A DNA stretch of 64,000 nt, from positions 62,001 through 126,000 of the forward strand of contig NZ_JAUYFA010000011.1 of assembly GCF_030691135.1 (NCBI RefSeq), read 5' to 3'. Below are positions 35,032 to 42,587 of this stretch, in pieces. A program made the position numbers and the translations under genes. Under the pieces are notes generated by a model. The model saw nothing but the letters and a program-made list of their open reading frames with translations. It was not told the origin of the DNA and searched no databases. The DNA comes from Phreatobacter sp. GTDB taxonomy: Bacteria > Pseudomonadota > Alphaproteobacteria > Rhizobiales > Phreatobacteraceae. The number at the start of each line of letters is the position of its first letter. The first letter of the stretch is position 1.

Positions 35032-35489
35032 GCCGGCCGCCTCCGCCGCGACACCAGGGTCAGCCAGAGCCCGCCGGCGAGCACGGCGAGGCCGAGGAGG
35101 ATGAGCGGCAGCCGCTCGCGCGGCGGATCGTTCAGCACCACCAGGTCCTCGCAGCGCGTGCCCGGCACCACCTGCAGCACCTCGTGCAGCGGCTTGCCCC
35201 CCGGCGCATGGCGGTACTGCACCAGCGGCACGCGGCATTCCTGCACCATGGGGCCGATGCGCCGCTCGAAGACGAAGATCGGAATGCCCACGGTGTCGCG
35301 GGTCGAGGTCGCGGTTTCCGAACCCGCCCAGCGGGCGGTGACCGCCTCCTGGCGGGTCGCCTGCCAGTAGGTCAGGACCGGCAGGGTATTGGGCACGAGG
35401 ATGACGAGGCCGATGAGCGCGACGAAGAGCCCGACCAGCAGCCGGGTGCCCGCGGGCGAGAGTTCGCCGGCCGGTGCCGGCGTCGTCAC
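35028..35489 (-). CDS. Unknown membrane protein coupled between pyrE and acpS
   Basis: This 153-residue protein has two membrane segments, [20 protein letters not shown] (about residues 15-35) and [19 protein letters not shown] near the C terminus, with a periplasmic domain of about 95 residues between them containing two Cys (QECRVPL, GTRCEDL) that could pair. The fold resembles DUF3592-like proteins only loosely. It starts with a GTG overlapping the pyrE stop (GTGA) and ends overlapping the acpS start (GTGA), so all three genes are translationally coupled. Confidence 0.75.
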
Positions 35490-36079
35490 GATGTCGCCCC
35501 CTGGATGCCGCGCGAGCCGGGTTTGACGGCCGGCAGGGCCGCCAGCTCCGGCGGCAGGGCATCGGCGGCATAGTCCGGCACATACCAGGAGAGCAGCGAG
35601 ACCAGCGGCACGCCGACATCGGCCTTGCCGCCCGAGCGGTCGACCAGCACGGCGGCGCCCACCGTCTCGCCGGGATGGCCGGCAATGGCGGCGAGGCATT
35701 CGCGGGTGGAGAGGCCGGTGGTGACGATGTCCTCGACCACCAGCACGCGGGCTCCTGAAGGGATCTCGAAGCCGCGGCGCAGCTTGAACTCGCCGTTCTC
35801 GCGCTCGACGAAAATGGCCTTGGCGCCGAGCTGGCGGGCAGTCTCATAGCCCGGCACGATGCCGCCGACGGCGGGCGAGACGACATAGTCGATGGTGCCG
35901 AACTGCGCCTTCACCTTGACGGCCAGCGCCGCGCAGAGCCGCGCCGTGCGCTCGGGGTCCATGAAGACGAACATCTTCTGCAGGAAGACCGGGGAACGCC
36001 TGCCCGAGGACAGGATGAAATGGCCTTCCAGGAGGGCGCCCGCGGCGCGGAATTCGGCGAGCACGTCGTCAGGGGTCAT
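35486..36079 (-). CDS. pyrE: Orotate phosphoribosyltransferase
   Basis: This 197-residue enzyme makes orotidine monophosphate from orotate and PRPP. It has the PRPP motif [17 protein letters not shown] near residue 110 and the catalytic-loop region [16 protein letters not shown] near the start, typical of the alphaproteobacterial form. It is first in the pyrE-membrane gene-acpS overlap group. In related genomes it usually lies just downstream of rsh; here the AT-rich insert separates them. Confidence 0.95.
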
Positions 36080-36149: not shown

Positions 36150-37628
36150 TCAATCGATTTTCGAGGCAGATGGCTTATTGTCGCTCCGAGCATCTATAAG
36201 CACAATGTCTGGGTTGCCCTCGAGGTTAAGCCGTTTGATGATTGATTTCACGCGATCGTATTGCTCGCGTTTAAAGAATATTATGCACTTTATTGCCCGC
36301 TCAGCGTCAGATGCGTCCTGATACGCCTCCACTTGTTTCTTAAGGTTCATTTCAAGTTTTGTATTTTTAGCCAACTTCATTTCGATGAGGGTTTTGTGCC
36401 GACCTCTGCTCGCCTTAAAGTCTACGGGTCCGCGCCCGTCATTGGCCTCTCTTCCGATGTCTGATGGCGTCCCAAACCAAACTAACCGATAAAGGATTTG
36501 AACGTCCTTTTCACGTTCCACGGGGTTTCCATTATCGTCATAAAATATCCTCCAGCACCCTTGTTCTTCGATTGCACGCTTGAGGTAGGCTAATCTCGCG
36601 TGAGCTTCCGCATATGTTCCGCCGGCCAATCCGTAGAATCCCGACAGGGCCAACGCAGGTTGTAGTGTCTCCCTCAGGCGTTTAGAAAAAAAGAGCTCTG
36701 TTAGAAGAACATTCTCTGAGCTAATTTCCTCGGCCCCGTCCCCATCCAATTCTTTTATTTTTATATAGTAATCTATTATACTTGGAAATTTTCTGATCGT
36801 ATCATAAATCGCGCCAATTTTGTCTTTTGCCGACAGCTTTTCATCGGGCGACGTCCGACGGTCCAACTCAATCTGGAAATAGTTATTTATTGATGCCCTT
36901 AGCTGGTCATCGGGTATTGCGCTTGGTATTCCCTCAAATTTTGCCAATAAGTCTTGCCGATTGATCCACGTATCATCTCTCGTCAGCATATCTTTAGGCG
37001 TAAGTATTACATGATCATCTTTATGCCATGGCAATTTATATGCCCTACGCTGCCAACTCTCGGTCCGATAATTAAACAAGGCTCGCTCTATAAAAACGAC
37101 CCTCACCTGATCGTCTCTTAAATTCTCTTTCGCAAATTTCGCCGTGTATTCACAAATAAACTCTTGTATTAAATTCGTCACAAAATCGCTAATATTATCG
37201 CAACCTACGCCATCTGCAATAAGACACAGTTTTTCTAAGTGACTACCTTTTGTAATGCGTTCTTTTCCAAAATCTCCGAACAAAACACCAAGATTAGAGT
37301 GCAGCGCCTTCGCAAAATCGACACCGAGCCCCGAACCTCCATTGCCTACCATAGAGAACCCGAGCCAATTTTGTTTTACTTCTGGGAAGCAGTACCAATT
37401 CCGAAGCTGCCCTTCGCTTATTGACCCCGATAACGCCCGTTCACGCAAAAAAACTAAATAGTCGATTATTTTGTTATGTAGAACTTTGTATTCTTCTTTT
37501 TCACTGTGAAAAAGCAAAAAGGGATCAATAAACAATGGAAGATCATTGATTAGCGAAATATCGAACGCGCCGTATTCCTCCAACACAGCGGGATCGATGC
37601 CGAAGCTATCACTAAAAAACGTTCCCAT
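36150..37628 (-). CDS. AT-rich orphan gene with PD-(D/E)XK nuclease domain
   Basis: This 492-residue protein has two parts. The N-terminal 360 residues are of unknown fold and begin with ISLINDLPLFIDPFLLF (25-40); no nucleotide-binding motif is visible. The C-terminal 110 residues hold a full PD-(D/E)XK signature: E394, D403 (GRGPVDF), E416-M-K418 (LIEMK) and the Q432-x3-Y436 pair (KKQVEAY) of the Mrr/RecB-like type. The region is strikingly AT-rich, with rare-in-this-genome codons (ATA, TTA, AAA), so it was acquired by transfer. It stands alone between pyrE and the rsh relic. A stand-alone defence nuclease is plausible but unproven. Confidence 0.85.
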   Translation of the reverse strand: MGTFFSDSFGIDPAVLEEYGAFDISLINDLPLFIDPFLLFHSEKEEYKVLHNKIIDYLVFLRERALSGSISEGQLRNWYCFPEVKQNWLGFSMVGNGGSGLGVDFAKALHSNLGVLFGDFGKERITKGSHLEKLCLIADGVGCDNISDFVTNLIQEFICEYTAKFAKENLRDDQVRVVFIERALFNYRTESWQRRAYKLPWHKDDHVILTPKDMLTRDDTWINRQDLLAKFEGIPSAIPDDQLRASINNYFQIELDRRTSPDEKLSAKDKIGAIYDTIRKFPSIIDYYIKIKELDGDGAEEISSENVLLTELFFSKRLRETLQPALALSGFYGLAGGTYAEAHARLAYLKRAIEEQGCWRIFYDDNGNPVEREKDVQILYRLVWFGTPSDIGREANDGRGPVDFKASRGRHKTLIEMKLAKNTKLEMNLKKQVEAYQDASDAERAIKCIIFFKREQYDRVKSIIKRLNLEGNPDIVLIDARSDNKPSASKID

Positions 37629-37773
37629 TCCGCGCCACCGGTATCCAACTGCGATCTGGAACCATCACCTCATGCGTTTATAATGGCCTTAATGCAACTC
37701 TTGCGCAATCGTCGATGGCCTGTCCGGTCAAATAATACAAATCGGCTCTGGTTCAGCCAAACTCTAAAACAAA

Positions 37774-37917
37774 CTAGTCTAAAATCCGCTGGCCCTCCGC
37801 CGTCATCGAAAGTGTCCTGATCCTCGTGATAGTTGCGCCACTGGTATCATCCGCCGTGGTGAGCTGTACGCACAAGACGAAGACGTTAACCCCTTCGTCC
37901 ACGATGACCTGATTCAC
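37774..37917 (-). pseudogene. Relic of rsh 3' end (ACT domain), in frame
   Basis: Read from the GTG at 37917 to the TAG at 37776-37774, 47 codons stay open and align with the last 60 residues of Rsh at 40422: 25 of 47 residues are identical by hand alignment, with one 13-codon deletion. Shared stretches include VxQVI, TTAD and IRTLxMTAExQR. GAGGGGGG precedes the GTG, so it could even be translated. It lies just downstream of the DUF4395 gene and at the edge of the AT-rich gene. Most likely it is the displaced original or duplicated end of rsh. Confidence 0.8.
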
Positions 37918-37923
37918 CCCCCC

Positions 37924-38649
37924 TCACAAACACCCGTTATGCCGCTTCCACCGCTCCTCGTGCCCGATCGCCACGGCGAAGGCCGGGACGCGGCAGCGTT
38001 CGGCCTCGGCCGCGGCAGTGGCGGCGCGCATTCCCCGCGCCTGCGAGGCCGGCATCTGCCAGGCGACGAGGCCGATGACCAGCACGGCGGCGGCGAGCAC
38101 CGCGAGCTGGGCGGGGACGAGGCGCTGGACCTCCTCGGGCCGGTGGATCTCGCAGGCGCCGCCGGGGCAGAGCTGCGCCTTCTCGCGGTTGAACAGGTTG
38201 TAGATCGAGCAGCCGATGCAGATGCCGAAGGCCGCCTCGCAGAAGAGGAAGGTGATGCAGAGCAGGCAGACGAGGAGGATGAGCGGCCCGCGCATGTCGG
38301 CATAGACGACCAGCCCCATCATCAGCACCGCCATGGCGAGGCCGATGCTCCAGGCGAAGCGCTTCTGCGGCGCGCCGACATAGTCCGGCTTCTGGTGGCG
38401 GACGAAGATGCGGCCGAGGACGAGGCTCGGGGCATAGGCGGGATTGACCAGGACGCGGATGGTGAAGTCGATGAAGAAGGCGACCACGGTGATGCGCGTC
38501 AGGGTGAAGTCGCCGAGATACCAGGCCTGCAGGAAGGCGGTGCCGGCGAGCAGCAGGAGGAGGCCGGCGCCGGCGCGGGCCTCGCGCTCGTTGAGGACGC
38601 GGACGGGATAGGCCGGGTGGTCGAGCCCGAACTGGAAGAGCCTGGTCAT
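37924..38649 (-). CDS. DUF4395 membrane protein
   Basis: This 241-residue protein has four to five membrane segments and the DUF4395 features DHPAYPVRVLNEREARAGAG near the start and FGICIGCSIYNLF with the paired Cys of CIGC and, further on, CPGG. The last 55 residues are a soluble tail of Ala/Arg/His type. Family function is not established; some members associate with thioredoxin-like proteins. The ATG at 38649 is chosen to match the family's MTRLFxFG start. It diverges from the polytopic membrane gene. Confidence 0.85.
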   Translation of the reverse strand: MTRLFQFGLDHPAYPVRVLNEREARAGAGLLLLLAGTAFLQAWYLGDFTLTRITVVAFFIDFTIRVLVNPAYAPSLVLGRIFVRHQKPDYVGAPQKRFAWSIGLAMAVLMMGLVVYADMRGPLILLVCLLCITFLFCEAAFGICIGCSIYNLFNREKAQLCPGGACEIHRPEEVQRLVPAQLAVLAAAVLVIGLVAWQMPASQARGMRAATAAAEAERCRVPAFAVAIGHEERWKRHNGCL

Positions 38650-38863
38650 GGTCGATGGTCCTGAACGCGAGATCGCTGACGCCGGGGCGTGTCGCATAGC
38701 ATTTCTGGAATGTGAAGTGCGCGAGTGACGCAGGGGCGCGGGCGCAGCCCCTGCCGCTGCCTCTGCCTCTGCCGCTGCCACGGCGCGCTTTGGCCGGAAG
38801 CGGCAAGCTGTTAGGAACACCGCTCCGCCCTGCCCGCCTGTTCGAGGGATGCGCCCCAGCGCC

Positions 38864-40387
38864 ATGAACCATCACAGCCCCGCCGCGCCGCCCGAGGGCG
38901 GGGCAACCGACCTCGCGGTCGACATCAACGCGCCGGTCCGGTCGCCGCTGCTGCGCGCCGCGCCGTGGATCGCGCTCGTCGTCTCGCTCGCCATCCTCGC
39001 AGGCTATCTCGCCACCGACGTGCAGATCTTCGCCGATGGCGGTTTCTTCGCCTTCGCCTTCCTGACGGGTGACCCCTGGGGGGCGCATTTCGTCAATATC
39101 CCGACGCGCGCCGCCGCCTTCCTCGTCACCATGGTGCCGCCCTTCCTCTGGGCGCGGGTGGGCGACCCGGCCAGCGCGATCCGCCTCTACGGGCTGATCT
39201 TCGGCCTGCTGCCGCTCGCCGGCCTCCTCGCCACCTGGGCGATCGCCGGCAACCGGCGCATCCTGCTGTTCTGCTCCCTGTCGACCATCGTCGTGCTGCC
39301 GGCCTCGGTGTTCTTCCCCTCCGAGACGCTGGTGACCCATGCGGTGTTCTGGCCGCTCTTCGCATTTGTCTGCGTCAGCCGGGCGCCGGCCGCCCTTCCC
39401 GCCGTCCTGCTCATGCTCGCCCTCGCCTTCTCGCACGAGGGCGGCATGGGGCTCATGGTGCTGCTGGTCGCCCTGCTCGCCCTGCGCCGGCGCGCCGGGC
39501 CGGTGGTGGTCGGCGCGGGCCTCACCGTGCTGGTCCTCTGGCTGTCGACCAGGCTCCTCGTCCCGCCGGTCCATGCCGCGACGCGCGATGCGCTGGTCCT
39601 CAACATGATCGGCGTGGTCAACCCGTTCGGCATCATCCGGCCGCTGAGCGTGGCCATCGTCGCCGGGGTGGCGACGGCCTGGTGGCTCCTGCGGCGGGAC
39701 GCGGCGGACGAGCCGCCGGTCTCCCGGATCCTGGTGATCGCCGGCCTTGCCCTGATCCCCGCTGCGGCCATCCTCGTCGCGGCCGATCTCGCCTTCGTCG
39801 GCCGCCACGACACCCTGCTGGTCGGCCGCTACAATTTCCGCACGCTGCTGCTCGGCAGCCTCGCGCTCTTCCTTCTGGCACTGTCGGTGATGTCGCTGCC
39901 GGACGGGCGCCGGCCCGCCCCGGTCCGGCGGCTCATCGGCTGGGCGACGGTGCGGGCCCGCCGCGCGCCGGCGCTGATCCTGGCGACCATGCTGATCGCC
40001 ACCGCCTGCCACGCCATGGACGGCGTGAACTTCCTCGCCTCGTGGCGCGCCTATGCGCAGGAACTCCGCGCCATCGCCCTCGGCCGGCCAGCGCCCGTGC
40101 CGGCCTATGCCGAAATCCTGTCGCGCGACCCGCGCCCGGCGCCCGAGCGGCTTCAGCGCCCCGGCCGGGACTGGACCATGAGCTGGGACTGGACCGACCC
40201 CTTCCTCTCGGTGGTTCTCGCCCTGCCGCAGCCGGCGCAGGCGCTGGTCTATCGCCCGGCCGAAACCTATGCGCCGCTCTCCTGTACGATGATGCGGGAC
40301 GCCGACCGGTCGGCGATCCGGGTGCCGCGGGAGAGCTACGAACTGCTGCTGAGCTATATGTGCGAACACCGCGGCAAGCAGGACTAG
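38864..40387 (+). CDS. Unknown polytopic membrane protein
   Basis: This 507-residue protein has about ten to twelve hydrophobic segments over residues 30-400 and a periplasmic-type C-terminal domain of about 100 residues with two Cys (LSCTMMRD, SYMCEHR). The pattern of an early acidic/aromatic loop (TDVQIFADGGFFAFAFLTGDPW) recalls membrane glycosyltransferases of the C type, but I see no diagnostic motif, so no function is assigned. ATGs at 38849 and 38864 are possible. It is the only plus-strand gene between pyrE and rpoZ. Confidence 0.75.
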   Translation: MNHHSPAAPPEGGATDLAVDINAPVRSPLLRAAPWIALVVSLAILAGYLATDVQIFADGGFFAFAFLTGDPWGAHFVNIPTRAAAFLVTMVPPFLWARVGDPASAIRLYGLIFGLLPLAGLLATWAIAGNRRILLFCSLSTIVVLPASVFFPSETLVTHAVFWPLFAFVCVSRAPAALPAVLLMLALAFSHEGGMGLMVLLVALLALRRRAGPVVVGAGLTVLVLWLSTRLLVPPVHAATRDALVLNMIGVVNPFGIIRPLSVAIVAGVATAWWLLRRDAADEPPVSRILVIAGLALIPAAAILVAADLAFVGRHDTLLVGRYNFRTLLLGSLALFLLALSVMSLPDGRRPAPVRRLIGWATVRARRAPALILATMLIATACHAMDGVNFLASWRAYAQELRAIALGRPAPVPAYAEILSRDPRPAPERLQRPGRDWTMSWDWTDPFLSVVLALPQPAQALVYRPAETYAPLSCTMMRDADRSAIRVPRESYELLLSYMCEHRGKQD

Positions 40388-40421
40388 AGGCAGACCGGCG
40401 GGACGGCGCTCGCCGAAGCGC

Positions 40422-42587
40422 CTATTCGAACACCCGCTGCGCCTCGGCCGTCATCGGCAGCGTCCTGATCCCGGCGATGATGGCGTTGAGGTGCTTCAGG
40501 TCCCAGACCTCGACGTCGATGGCGACATTGGTGTAATCCGCCGTGGTGCGCTGCATCCTGAGGTTGTCGATATTGCCGTCATTGTCGGCGATGACCTGGG
40601 TCACGGCGGCGAGCGAGCCCGGCGCGTTGCGCGACTTCACGGCGATGCGGGCGGGGTAGCGGGAACGCTTGGCGCTGTCGACGTCCCAGCGCACGTCGAG
40701 CCAGCGCTCCGGCTCGTTGTCATAGGCGGCCAGCGCCGGCGACTGGATGGGGAAGATGGTGATCCCCTCCCCCGGCGTCATGATGCCGACGATGCGGTCG
40801 CCGGGCACGGCGCCGCTCTCCCTGGAGAAGCGCACCGGCAGGTCGAGATTGATGCCGCGGATGGGGATGGCCCCTTCCGATTCGGGCACCTGGAACTTCA
40901 GCGCCGTCTCGCCGGCGACGCCGAACCAGTCGGCGGTGGGCTTGGGGCCGAGCGGCGTCTCGCTCTTGAAGTCGGGATAGACCGCCTTCAGCACGTCGTC
41001 CTCGGGCATCTCGTTGCGGCCGACGGCCCAGTAGACGTCCTCGACGCCGACGCGGGCGAGGCGCTTCAGCCCCTGTCGCACGATGTCGTCGGAGAAGGAC
41101 TTGCCGGCGCGGGTGAACAGCGTCTGGACGATCTGGCGGCCGAGTTCGAGATATTGGGCGCGGGTCGCGACGCGGGTGGCCCGGCGGATGGCCGAGCGGG
41201 CGCGGCCGGTGACGACGATGTTCTCCCAGGCCGGCGAGGGCGTCGCCTTGGGATCGGTGATGATCTCGACCTCGTCGCCGTTCTGCAGCTCGGTGACCAG
41301 CGGCCGCTCGACGCCGTTGATGCGGGCGCGGGCGCACTGGTTGCCGATGTCGGTGTGGACCGCATAGGCGAAGTCGATACAGTTGGCCTTGCGCGGCAGG
41401 GCGATCAGCCGGCCCTTCGGGGTGAAGCAATAGACCTGGTCGGAGAACAGCTCGAGCTTGGTGTGTTCGAGGAATTCCTCGGGGTTGTCGGCATGGGCGA
41501 GCATTTCCACCATGCGGCGCAGCCAGGCATAGGCGGTGCTCTCGGCGTGTTCGGCGTCGTCCTTGTAGAGGGCGTGCGCGGCGATGCCGTATTCGGCGAT
41601 CTCGTGCATCTGCGAGGTGCGGATCTGCATCTCGACGCGCTGGCTCTGCGGGCCGATGACGGTGGTGTGCAGCGAGCGGTAATCGTTGCCCTTGGGCGTC
41701 GAGATATAGTCCTTGAAGCGCAGCGGCACCGCCGGCCAGGTGGTGTGGATGATGCCGACGGCGGCGTAGCAGGCGGGGATGTCGTCGACGAGGATGCGGA
41801 AGGCGACGATGTCGGAGAGCTGCTCGAAGGAGACCGATTTGCGCTCCATCTTGCGGTAGATCGAATAGGGCTTCTTCAGCCGGCCGGTGACCTCGGCGCT
41901 GATGCCCTCGCCGGCGAGCTTGCGGGCGAGCTGGGTCTCGATCTCCTCGATGACGGCGGCGGCGGCCGCGCGCTGGCGGTCGAGCCGCTGCTTCAGCGCC
42001 TCGTAGGCCTCGGCGTTGATCTGCCGGAAGGCCAGGTCCTCCAGCTCCTCGCGCATGTCGTGCATGCCCATGCGGCCTGCGAGCGGGGCGTAGATGTCCA
42101 GCGTCTCCTGGGCGACGCGGTCGCGCTTGGCCGGGGGCACATAGTGCAGCGTGCGCATGTTGTGCAGGCGGTCGGCGAGCTTCACCAGCAGGACGCGCAC
42201 GTCGGAGGTGATGGCGAGCAGGAGCTTCCTGAGGTTCTCCGCCTGCACCGCCTGCTTGGAGACGAGGTCGAGCTTCTTCAGCTTGGTCAGGCCGTCGACA
42301 AGCTCGGCGATGGCGGCGCCGAACTTCTCGCGGATGTCGTCCTTGGTGGCGGCGGTGTCCTCGATCGTGTCGTGCAGCAGGGCCGAGACGATGGTGGCGT
42401 CGTCGACCTTGAGGTCGGTGAGGATCGCCGCGACCTCGAGCGGATGGGAGAAATAGGGGTCGCCGGAGGCGCGCTTCTGCGTGCCGTGGGCCAGCATGGC
42501 ATAGACATAGGCGCGGTCGAGCAGGGCCTCGTCGGCCTTCGGGTTGTAGCGCTTGACGCGCTCCACCAGCTCGTATTGACGCATCAT
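40422..42587 (-). CDS. rsh: Bifunctional (p)ppGpp synthetase/hydrolase Rsh
   Basis: This 721-residue protein has all four Rsh domains: an HD hydrolase (H48, H72-D73 and D139 visible), a synthetase with RLKKPYSIYRKMERK and GNDYRSLHTTVIGP, a TGS domain (about 395-455, CFTPKGRLIALPRKANCIDFAYAVHTDIG) and a C-terminal ACT domain (about 645-721). Both active sites look intact, as expected for the single Rsh of this order. rpoZ lies upstream on the same strand, with a terminator between them. A relic of its 3' end lies 2.5 kb downstream. Confidence 0.97.
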   Translation of the reverse strand: MMRQYELVERVKRYNPKADEALLDRAYVYAMLAHGTQKRASGDPYFSHPLEVAAILTDLKVDDATIVSALLHDTIEDTAATKDDIREKFGAAIAELVDGLTKLKKLDLVSKQAVQAENLRKLLLAITSDVRVLLVKLADRLHNMRTLHYVPPAKRDRVAQETLDIYAPLAGRMGMHDMREELEDLAFRQINAEAYEALKQRLDRQRAAAAAVIEEIETQLARKLAGEGISAEVTGRLKKPYSIYRKMERKSVSFEQLSDIVAFRILVDDIPACYAAVGIIHTTWPAVPLRFKDYISTPKGNDYRSLHTTVIGPQSQRVEMQIRTSQMHEIAEYGIAAHALYKDDAEHAESTAYAWLRRMVEMLAHADNPEEFLEHTKLELFSDQVYCFTPKGRLIALPRKANCIDFAYAVHTDIGNQCARARINGVERPLVTELQNGDEVEIITDPKATPSPAWENIVVTGRARSAIRRATRVATRAQYLELGRQIVQTLFTRAGKSFSDDIVRQGLKRLARVGVEDVYWAVGRNEMPEDDVLKAVYPDFKSETPLGPKPTADWFGVAGETALKFQVPESEGAIPIRGINLDLPVRFSRESGAVPGDRIVGIMTPGEGITIFPIQSPALAAYDNEPERWLDVRWDVDSAKRSRYPARIAVKSRNAPGSLAAVTQVIADNDGNIDNLRMQRTTADYTNVAIDVEVWDLKHLNAIIAGIRTLPMTAEAQRVFE

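Follow-up and report, generated by a model that had tools for sequence, protein, structure and literature searches.

Between rsh and pyrE in a Phreatobacter genome, we found a short, degenerate copy of the rsh terminus that is probably a dead, displaced rsh 3' end, left behind by one-sided recombination in an interval of variable content. The relic is real and largely explained, and represents a fresh example of a known process with a housekeeping gene as anchor. The window, i.e., the whole stretch of DNA analysed (64,000 nucleotides), comes from genome G000; other G codes denote the genomes and L codes the loci with which it was compared. The features that bear on the relic are listed below.

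37774..37917, minus strand: rsh-tail relic, equivalent to rsh residues 661-721 minus 13 codons, ending in TAG
40422..42587, minus strand: intact rsh, with HD, RelA_SpoT, TGS, RIS and ACT domains
40422..40604, minus strand: segment of intact rsh copied by the relic, from the alignment of the relic to rsh
38849..40387, plus strand: 512-aa protein, cargo, no Pfam match
37924..38649, minus strand: DUF4395 protein, cargo; the start at MTRLF is a judgement, as the open frame extends to 38865
37689..37755, minus strand: possible decayed IS3/ISRm1-type insertion sequence (IS) end, just downstream of the relic, suggested by likeness to the G009 copy only
36150..37628, minus strand: AT-rich gene (44% GC) for a 492-aa protein, PDC-M36A-like over residues 21-231
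35486..36079, minus strand: pyrE, the other fixed flank, with a conserved leader directly upstream
37924..40756, no strand: low-divergence block common to G000 and G009, comprising the rsh 3' end and the 512-aa and DUF4395 genes and ending where the relic begins

The rsh-tail relic and its source

The preliminary description had read this segment as an in-frame relic of the rsh end, and its coordinates, strand, open frame, identities and gap were all reproduced: the minus-strand frame at 37774-37917 starts with GTG, runs open for 47 codons to a TAG, and matches the Rsh C-terminus at 25 of 47 residues with a single 13-residue gap. The two genes that it had considered out of place between rsh and the relic, encoding the 512-aa and DUF4395 proteins, are indeed there, and the 492-aa gene separates the relic from pyrE. 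The arrangement is that of a displaced 3' gene end: a complete gene is followed downstream by other genes and then by a truncated copy of its end in the same orientation.

Similarity to rsh exceeded the shuffled controls that had been proposed as a check. The DNA alignment reached a local score of 50 (1000 dinucleotide shuffles averaged 20 and peaked at 32; the best of 426 other 144-nt segments of the window reached 43) and the protein alignment to Rsh a score of 83 (maximum 52 in 2000 shuffles), and chance similarity was ruled out by the shuffles together with the segment controls. The idea that the relic might group with a lineage other than that of the resident rsh did not hold: among 124 rsh tails, a set that counts duplicate loci, it scored 83 with the tails of G000, G009, G002 and G007, and no other tail exceeded 53. 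A distant rsh was thus ruled out as the source, since tails of the resident clade match best by far; judging by sequence, the relic derives from the rsh of the resident Phreatobacter clade.

Most likely, the relic is a dead scar rather than a working small protein. Bases absent from all four clade tails fell at 12, 11 and 16 of the 47 sites at codon positions 1, 2 and 3, a near-flat distribution pointing to the absence of purifying selection, as read from one sequence of 141 sites. Differences of the functional clade tails from the G000 tail were distributed as 2/0/11, 1/0/9 and 0/0/1 over the three positions, and those of the outgroup G010 tail as 7/2/14. Survival of the frame had been regarded as odd for a dead fragment, and attention had been drawn to a 13-codon deletion that is an exact multiple of three. 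Neither point is unusual: the relic has diverged by ~31% (44 of 141 sites), and in simulations of neutral decay to this number of differences (20000 runs, AT bias varied) the 47 codons stayed stop-free in 44%, 36% or 32%, depending on the bias, while a gap falls in multiples of three with a chance of about one in three.

The suggestion that a 47-residue ACT-like peptide might still be made fared no better. Its frame is open and has a GTG start, but the codon-position differences are near-flat, a Pfam search with the peptide returned only a sub-threshold Calx-beta hit and no ACT match, and, of the relics described below, that of G007 has an interrupted frame and that of G002 has lost most of it. 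The GAGGGGGG run noted before the GTG does stand there, but abuts it directly, without the spacer of a ribosome site; since the same run also trails the DUF4395 gene of G002, and a version containing one A trails that of G009, it belongs to the 3' flank of this gene. No rsh tail was seen in the 200 bases left after the DUF4395 gene in G009, where 305 of 2000 shuffles reached the rsh-tail score. On the codon pattern, the G-run without spacer and the missing ACT match, a functional peptide was ruled out as a reading that is hardly credible, and it is very likely that the relic codes for no gene. The case serves as a warning that a decayed gene stub can mimic a small gene.

A variable interval with further scars

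We compared the rsh-pyrE interval in 12 Phreatobacter genomes, of which 10 yielded complete intervals, G009 being cut by a contig end and rsh being cut off in G001. Both flanking genes remain intact while the content between them varies. Five of the 10 complete intervals (G004, G006, G011, G003 and G008) measure 61-401 bp and hold no cargo, and the other five hold differing cargo: in G010 (L036:14548-16907, 50% GC) solely a two-gene PD-Lambda-5 pair (A, E 3e-150; B, E 3e-112), in G002 the DUF4395 protein and a 1024-aa type IIG-like enzyme (E 2e-75), in G007 two lectin-like frames and a PIN_12 protein, in G005 a chemotaxis receptor, and in G000 the 512-aa, DUF4395 and AT-rich 492-aa proteins. 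PADLOC matches were found in three of these five (G010, G002 and G000) and not for the G007 PIN protein, in a scan that left out the G005 receptor and the lectin-like, DUF4395 and 512-aa proteins. The two lectin-like frames of G007 (L035:3660-5959) are adjacent, resemble ricin-B lectins, one of them under the Pfam cut-off, and lie beside an rsh relic. Pfam detected no integrase or transposase in the frames scanned, which comprised eight cargo frames of relatives and the three cargo genes of the window. Small cargo genes, several of them defence-like, come and go in the variable Phreatobacter rsh-pyrE gap; with constant flanking genes and contents that change from one related genome to the next, this one interval has the hallmark of core-flanked hotspots.

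Individual cargo genes differ in their distribution. The 512-aa protein has a 99% identical counterpart at the same place in G009, was not found in G002, and has only a 29% relative in G007, elsewhere in the genome. The DUF4395 gene occupies the same place in G009 and G002, with a 68% relative elsewhere in G006. NCBIfam at a threshold of 0.01 gave no match for these two proteins or the 492-aa protein.

Across the order, Phreatobacter included, rsh and pyrE are 9 bp to 6.3 kb apart in the 68 of 95 loci in which pyrE was found. Six loci (L050, L051, L058, L082, L099 and L115), several from Microvirga, Methylobacterium and other Hyphomicrobiales, have the two genes 3.5-6.3 kb apart with other genes between. 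From other genera, 53 of 77 cargo frames were scanned, the remaining 24 having been set aside on visual inspection as antisense or duplicated; at 1e-8, the scanned frames gave 3, 3 and 1 matches with three PADLOC models, and by Pfam the frames scanned had mostly other functions. Among the frames scanned, a defence flavour of the cargo was thus apparent in Phreatobacter only.

Further gene-end scars lie in three related genomes. In G007, a relic 3.2 kb downstream of rsh, with stops and gaps, is 68% identical to the genome's own tail over 260 nt; its identity to the G005, G010 and own tails is 0.70, 0.69 and 0.70. By blastn, it starts at nucleotide 25 of the 300 of the rsh tail, and the relic of the window at nucleotide 118. 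A weaker relic follows the DUF4395 gene in G002, spanning 46 nt by blastn and ~100 by gapped alignment. It scored 22 against a maximum of 18 in 2000 shuffles, and its blastn E value of 1.6e-4 does not stand out from the faint matches that six loci from other genera gave (7e-4 to 1e-4); given its weak blastn and tblastn results, this relic rests on its place and on the local shuffle test. A tblastn survey with each locus's own tail recovered relics at 2 of 94 loci (G007 and G000), against 0 of 94 controls, and missed G002. With blastn at E 1e-3, 10 of 95 loci gave hits compared with 1 shuffled, and only G007 and G000 passed 1e-6; in this survey 94 of the 95 loci had at least 100 bases downstream, and the G002 locus was present twice (L034 and L049). 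Derived bases shared among the three rsh relics (11/16, 10/17 and 5/10, figures that depend on the gapped alignment) faintly hint that they may stem from one old event.

The scar in G009 is of the other flank gene. After the DUF4395 gene, at L033:7135-7326, stands a decayed pyrE leader with approximately the first 47 nt of pyrE, scoring 40 to 56.5 with four references, compared with 16 to 21 for the G000, G002 and G007 intervals. One stretch of this stub resembles the G010-type leader, and its overall identity is highest to G000 (86/115; G010 80/116). Whole pyrE was not found in the incomplete G009 genome.

Origin of the displaced end

One-sided homologous recombination, also termed homology-facilitated illegitimate recombination, is the likeliest process to have displaced the old rsh tail, and we infer the one-sided join as well as its order and direction. 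DNA from a related strain, bearing cargo together with part of a flank gene, would have entered the rsh-pyrE interval by homologous recombination at one end and non-homologous joining at the other. In the order that seems likelier, this DNA would have supplied a new rsh end along with the upstream cargo, keeping rsh whole, and the old tail would have been shifted downstream to decay free of selection. Later homologous exchange between lineages may have renewed the block that runs from the rsh tail through the DUF4395 gene as far as the seam. This account is supported because the copy, its clade, its near-neutral pattern, the variable interval, the other relics and the shared block were all observed. 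The G002 and G007 relics count against it insofar as they are uncertain, the former through its weak blastn match and the latter because it is equally near the G005 and G010 tails. The earlier proposal of DNA inserted at or near rsh, or of a duplicated end, stood in that a real displaced or duplicated same-strand rsh end marks a place where other DNA entered; what we find is not an isolated insertion, but one seam within a variable interval.

The shared block bears on the order of events. Between G000 and G009, 80 of 1800 sites differ in the rsh body and 30 of 2800 in the rsh 3' end and the 512-aa and DUF4395 genes (Fisher p 6e-13, with block limits chosen after the bins were seen), and an unrestricted change point fell at 41967 (gain 93.5 versus a maximum of 48.7 in 500 block permutations, intergenic sites included). 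The rsh 3' end is not conserved as such, given that G000 and G002 are 92.5% identical in its last full 240-nt window. The block from inside rsh to the relic edge appears to have been exchanged by homology between lineages. As the relic has diverged by ~31% and the block by only ~1% from G009, such an exchange would be far younger and would not have created the displacement, so that an older displacement event must be assumed. On the homologous side of the supposed join, divergence from G009 drops within rsh and remains low across the cargo, an exchange younger than the relic; on the far side, the DNA after the DUF4395 gene differs in G000, G002 and G009, the original junction having decayed. 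No donor with rsh beside the cargo of the window was found among the genomes compared.

The pieces could also have arrived from the opposite side. The AT-rich gene, accompanied by the rsh tail of its donor, would then have entered through recombination in pyrE, with a non-homologous join behind the DUF4395 gene, and the relic would be this donor tail. We regard this account as possible but doubtful; it overlaps the preferred one, so that the weights we give to the two overlap as well. It would explain why G000, G002 and G009 have the DUF4395 gene in common yet different DNA after it in each, why a pyrE leader follows that gene in G009 as if it had once adjoined pyrE, and why the 492-aa gene is absent from all 11 other Phreatobacter genomes searched. 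It sits less well with the relic being of the resident-clade type, and no rsh piece better than E 0.05 was found beside relatives of the 492-aa gene (18 loci, 1.5-kb flanks). An unlikely but not negligible alternative involves insertion sequences beside rsh and pyrE, copies of which would have recombined or carried neighbouring DNA, moving cargo and gene ends; it retains some weight because the G009 seam, and perhaps that of the window, has an IS end. The G009 pyrE relic directly abuts this end, of which G009 has three identical copies, each ~45 bases from a contig end, where the assembly breaks at the multicopy sequence; copies with 79-82% identity occur in G010 (3) and G005 (7), and a G010 copy matches plasmid elements, several annotated as IS3 or ISRm1. 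Against the G009 copy, the remnant in the window scored 18 compared with a maximum of 15 in 2000 shuffles, and 19.5 compared with 16.5 in 500, and a pattern built from the window and G009 sites occurred four times in the 12 genomes (three in G009, one in the window) and never in its reversed control. With the G010, G005 and plasmid copies, however, 27 to 354 of 500 shuffles reached the scores of the window remnant. No convincing IS trace accompanies the G007 and G002 relics, where among the matches listed the weak ones fall inside cargo genes; plasmid searches with the G007 and G002 junction pieces gave nothing, and those with the G005 and window pieces gave no useful match. Moreover, gene ends are not copied by an IS alone.

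Truncated same-strand gene ends behind a whole gene are the usual outcome of site-specific integration, in which an element integrating at the rsh 3' end would restore the gene and displace the old end. This outcome fits the relic, but we consider the process improbable. The cargo frames scanned revealed neither integrase nor transposase, the relics start at different points of the tail in G007 and the window (a difference that decay could blur) rather than at a constant crossover, and G009 carries a pyrE relic instead; decay and unscanned frames leave some room for such an element.

Displacement by one-sided recombination has parallels elsewhere. At type VI effector loci of V. cholerae, displaced 3' ends behind new cargo were put down to homology-facilitated illegitimate recombination, and orphan 3' regions of Rhs genes, as cited in the same report, are displaced ends of the same type (PMC5361080). 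In the reading preferred here, our case would share with V. cholerae an upstream homology anchor and a downstream non-homologous join, besides an old 3' end behind the cargo. In contrast to that system, the scar here is the end of the anchor itself, a housekeeping gene; its stub is decayed and seemingly out of use, the cargo bears no relation to that gene, and we infer both joins. Recombination at neighbouring core genes may drive turnover of hotspots that lack mobile-element genes (PMC5635113), and the rsh-pyrE interval resembles these in its fixed core flanks, changing content, lack of integrase in the scanned frames and exchange signal reaching into a flank gene; it differs in the gene-end relics left within it, and was compared across 12 genomes from a single genus. 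Core genes likewise flank changing gene sets in the core defence hotspots of Pseudomonas aeruginosa (PMC10250203). Core-flanked changing genes with defence genes among them are common to both, but the rsh-pyrE interval is far smaller (at most ~5 kb) and mixed with cargo of no known defence role, and outside Phreatobacter the frames scanned are mostly non-defence genes. The locus most likely works like the V. cholerae displaced ends and sits in something like the hotspots of PMC5635113. A search of titles and abstract openings on the rsh-pyrE interval, Phreatobacter defence or PD-Lambda-5 hotspots returned nothing on this interval.

Where no integrase is seen, gene-end stubs in a variable interval give evidence of the route taken by incoming cargo. 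The stubs of four related genomes, three of rsh and one of pyrE, form a small natural series bearing on arrival order and join type. We tentatively suggest, with more doubt than confidence, that rsh and pyrE act as paired anchors, repeated one-sided captures at either gene each leaving a decaying stub and the stubs recording the order in which cargo arrived. If this reading is true, the stubs are a readable record of cargo arrival, some of that cargo serving in phage defence.

By their position between rsh and pyrE, both the AT-rich 492-aa gene and the PIN gene of G007 become candidates for a role in defence. The 492-aa protein matched the PADLOC model PDC-M36A over residues 21-231 (E 4e-19), had no solved-structure match beyond E 0.29, and keeps D403, E416 and K418 in five aligned sequences, residues that we take to be a candidate PD-(D/E)XK nuclease motif; it is possibly a nuclease and a defence gene. 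Of 397 genomes sampled from the order, 16 contain a match to it, counting its own. Near one relative of this gene, at L131:19-981, stands a frame that resembles a phage-type recombinase, named by eye only.
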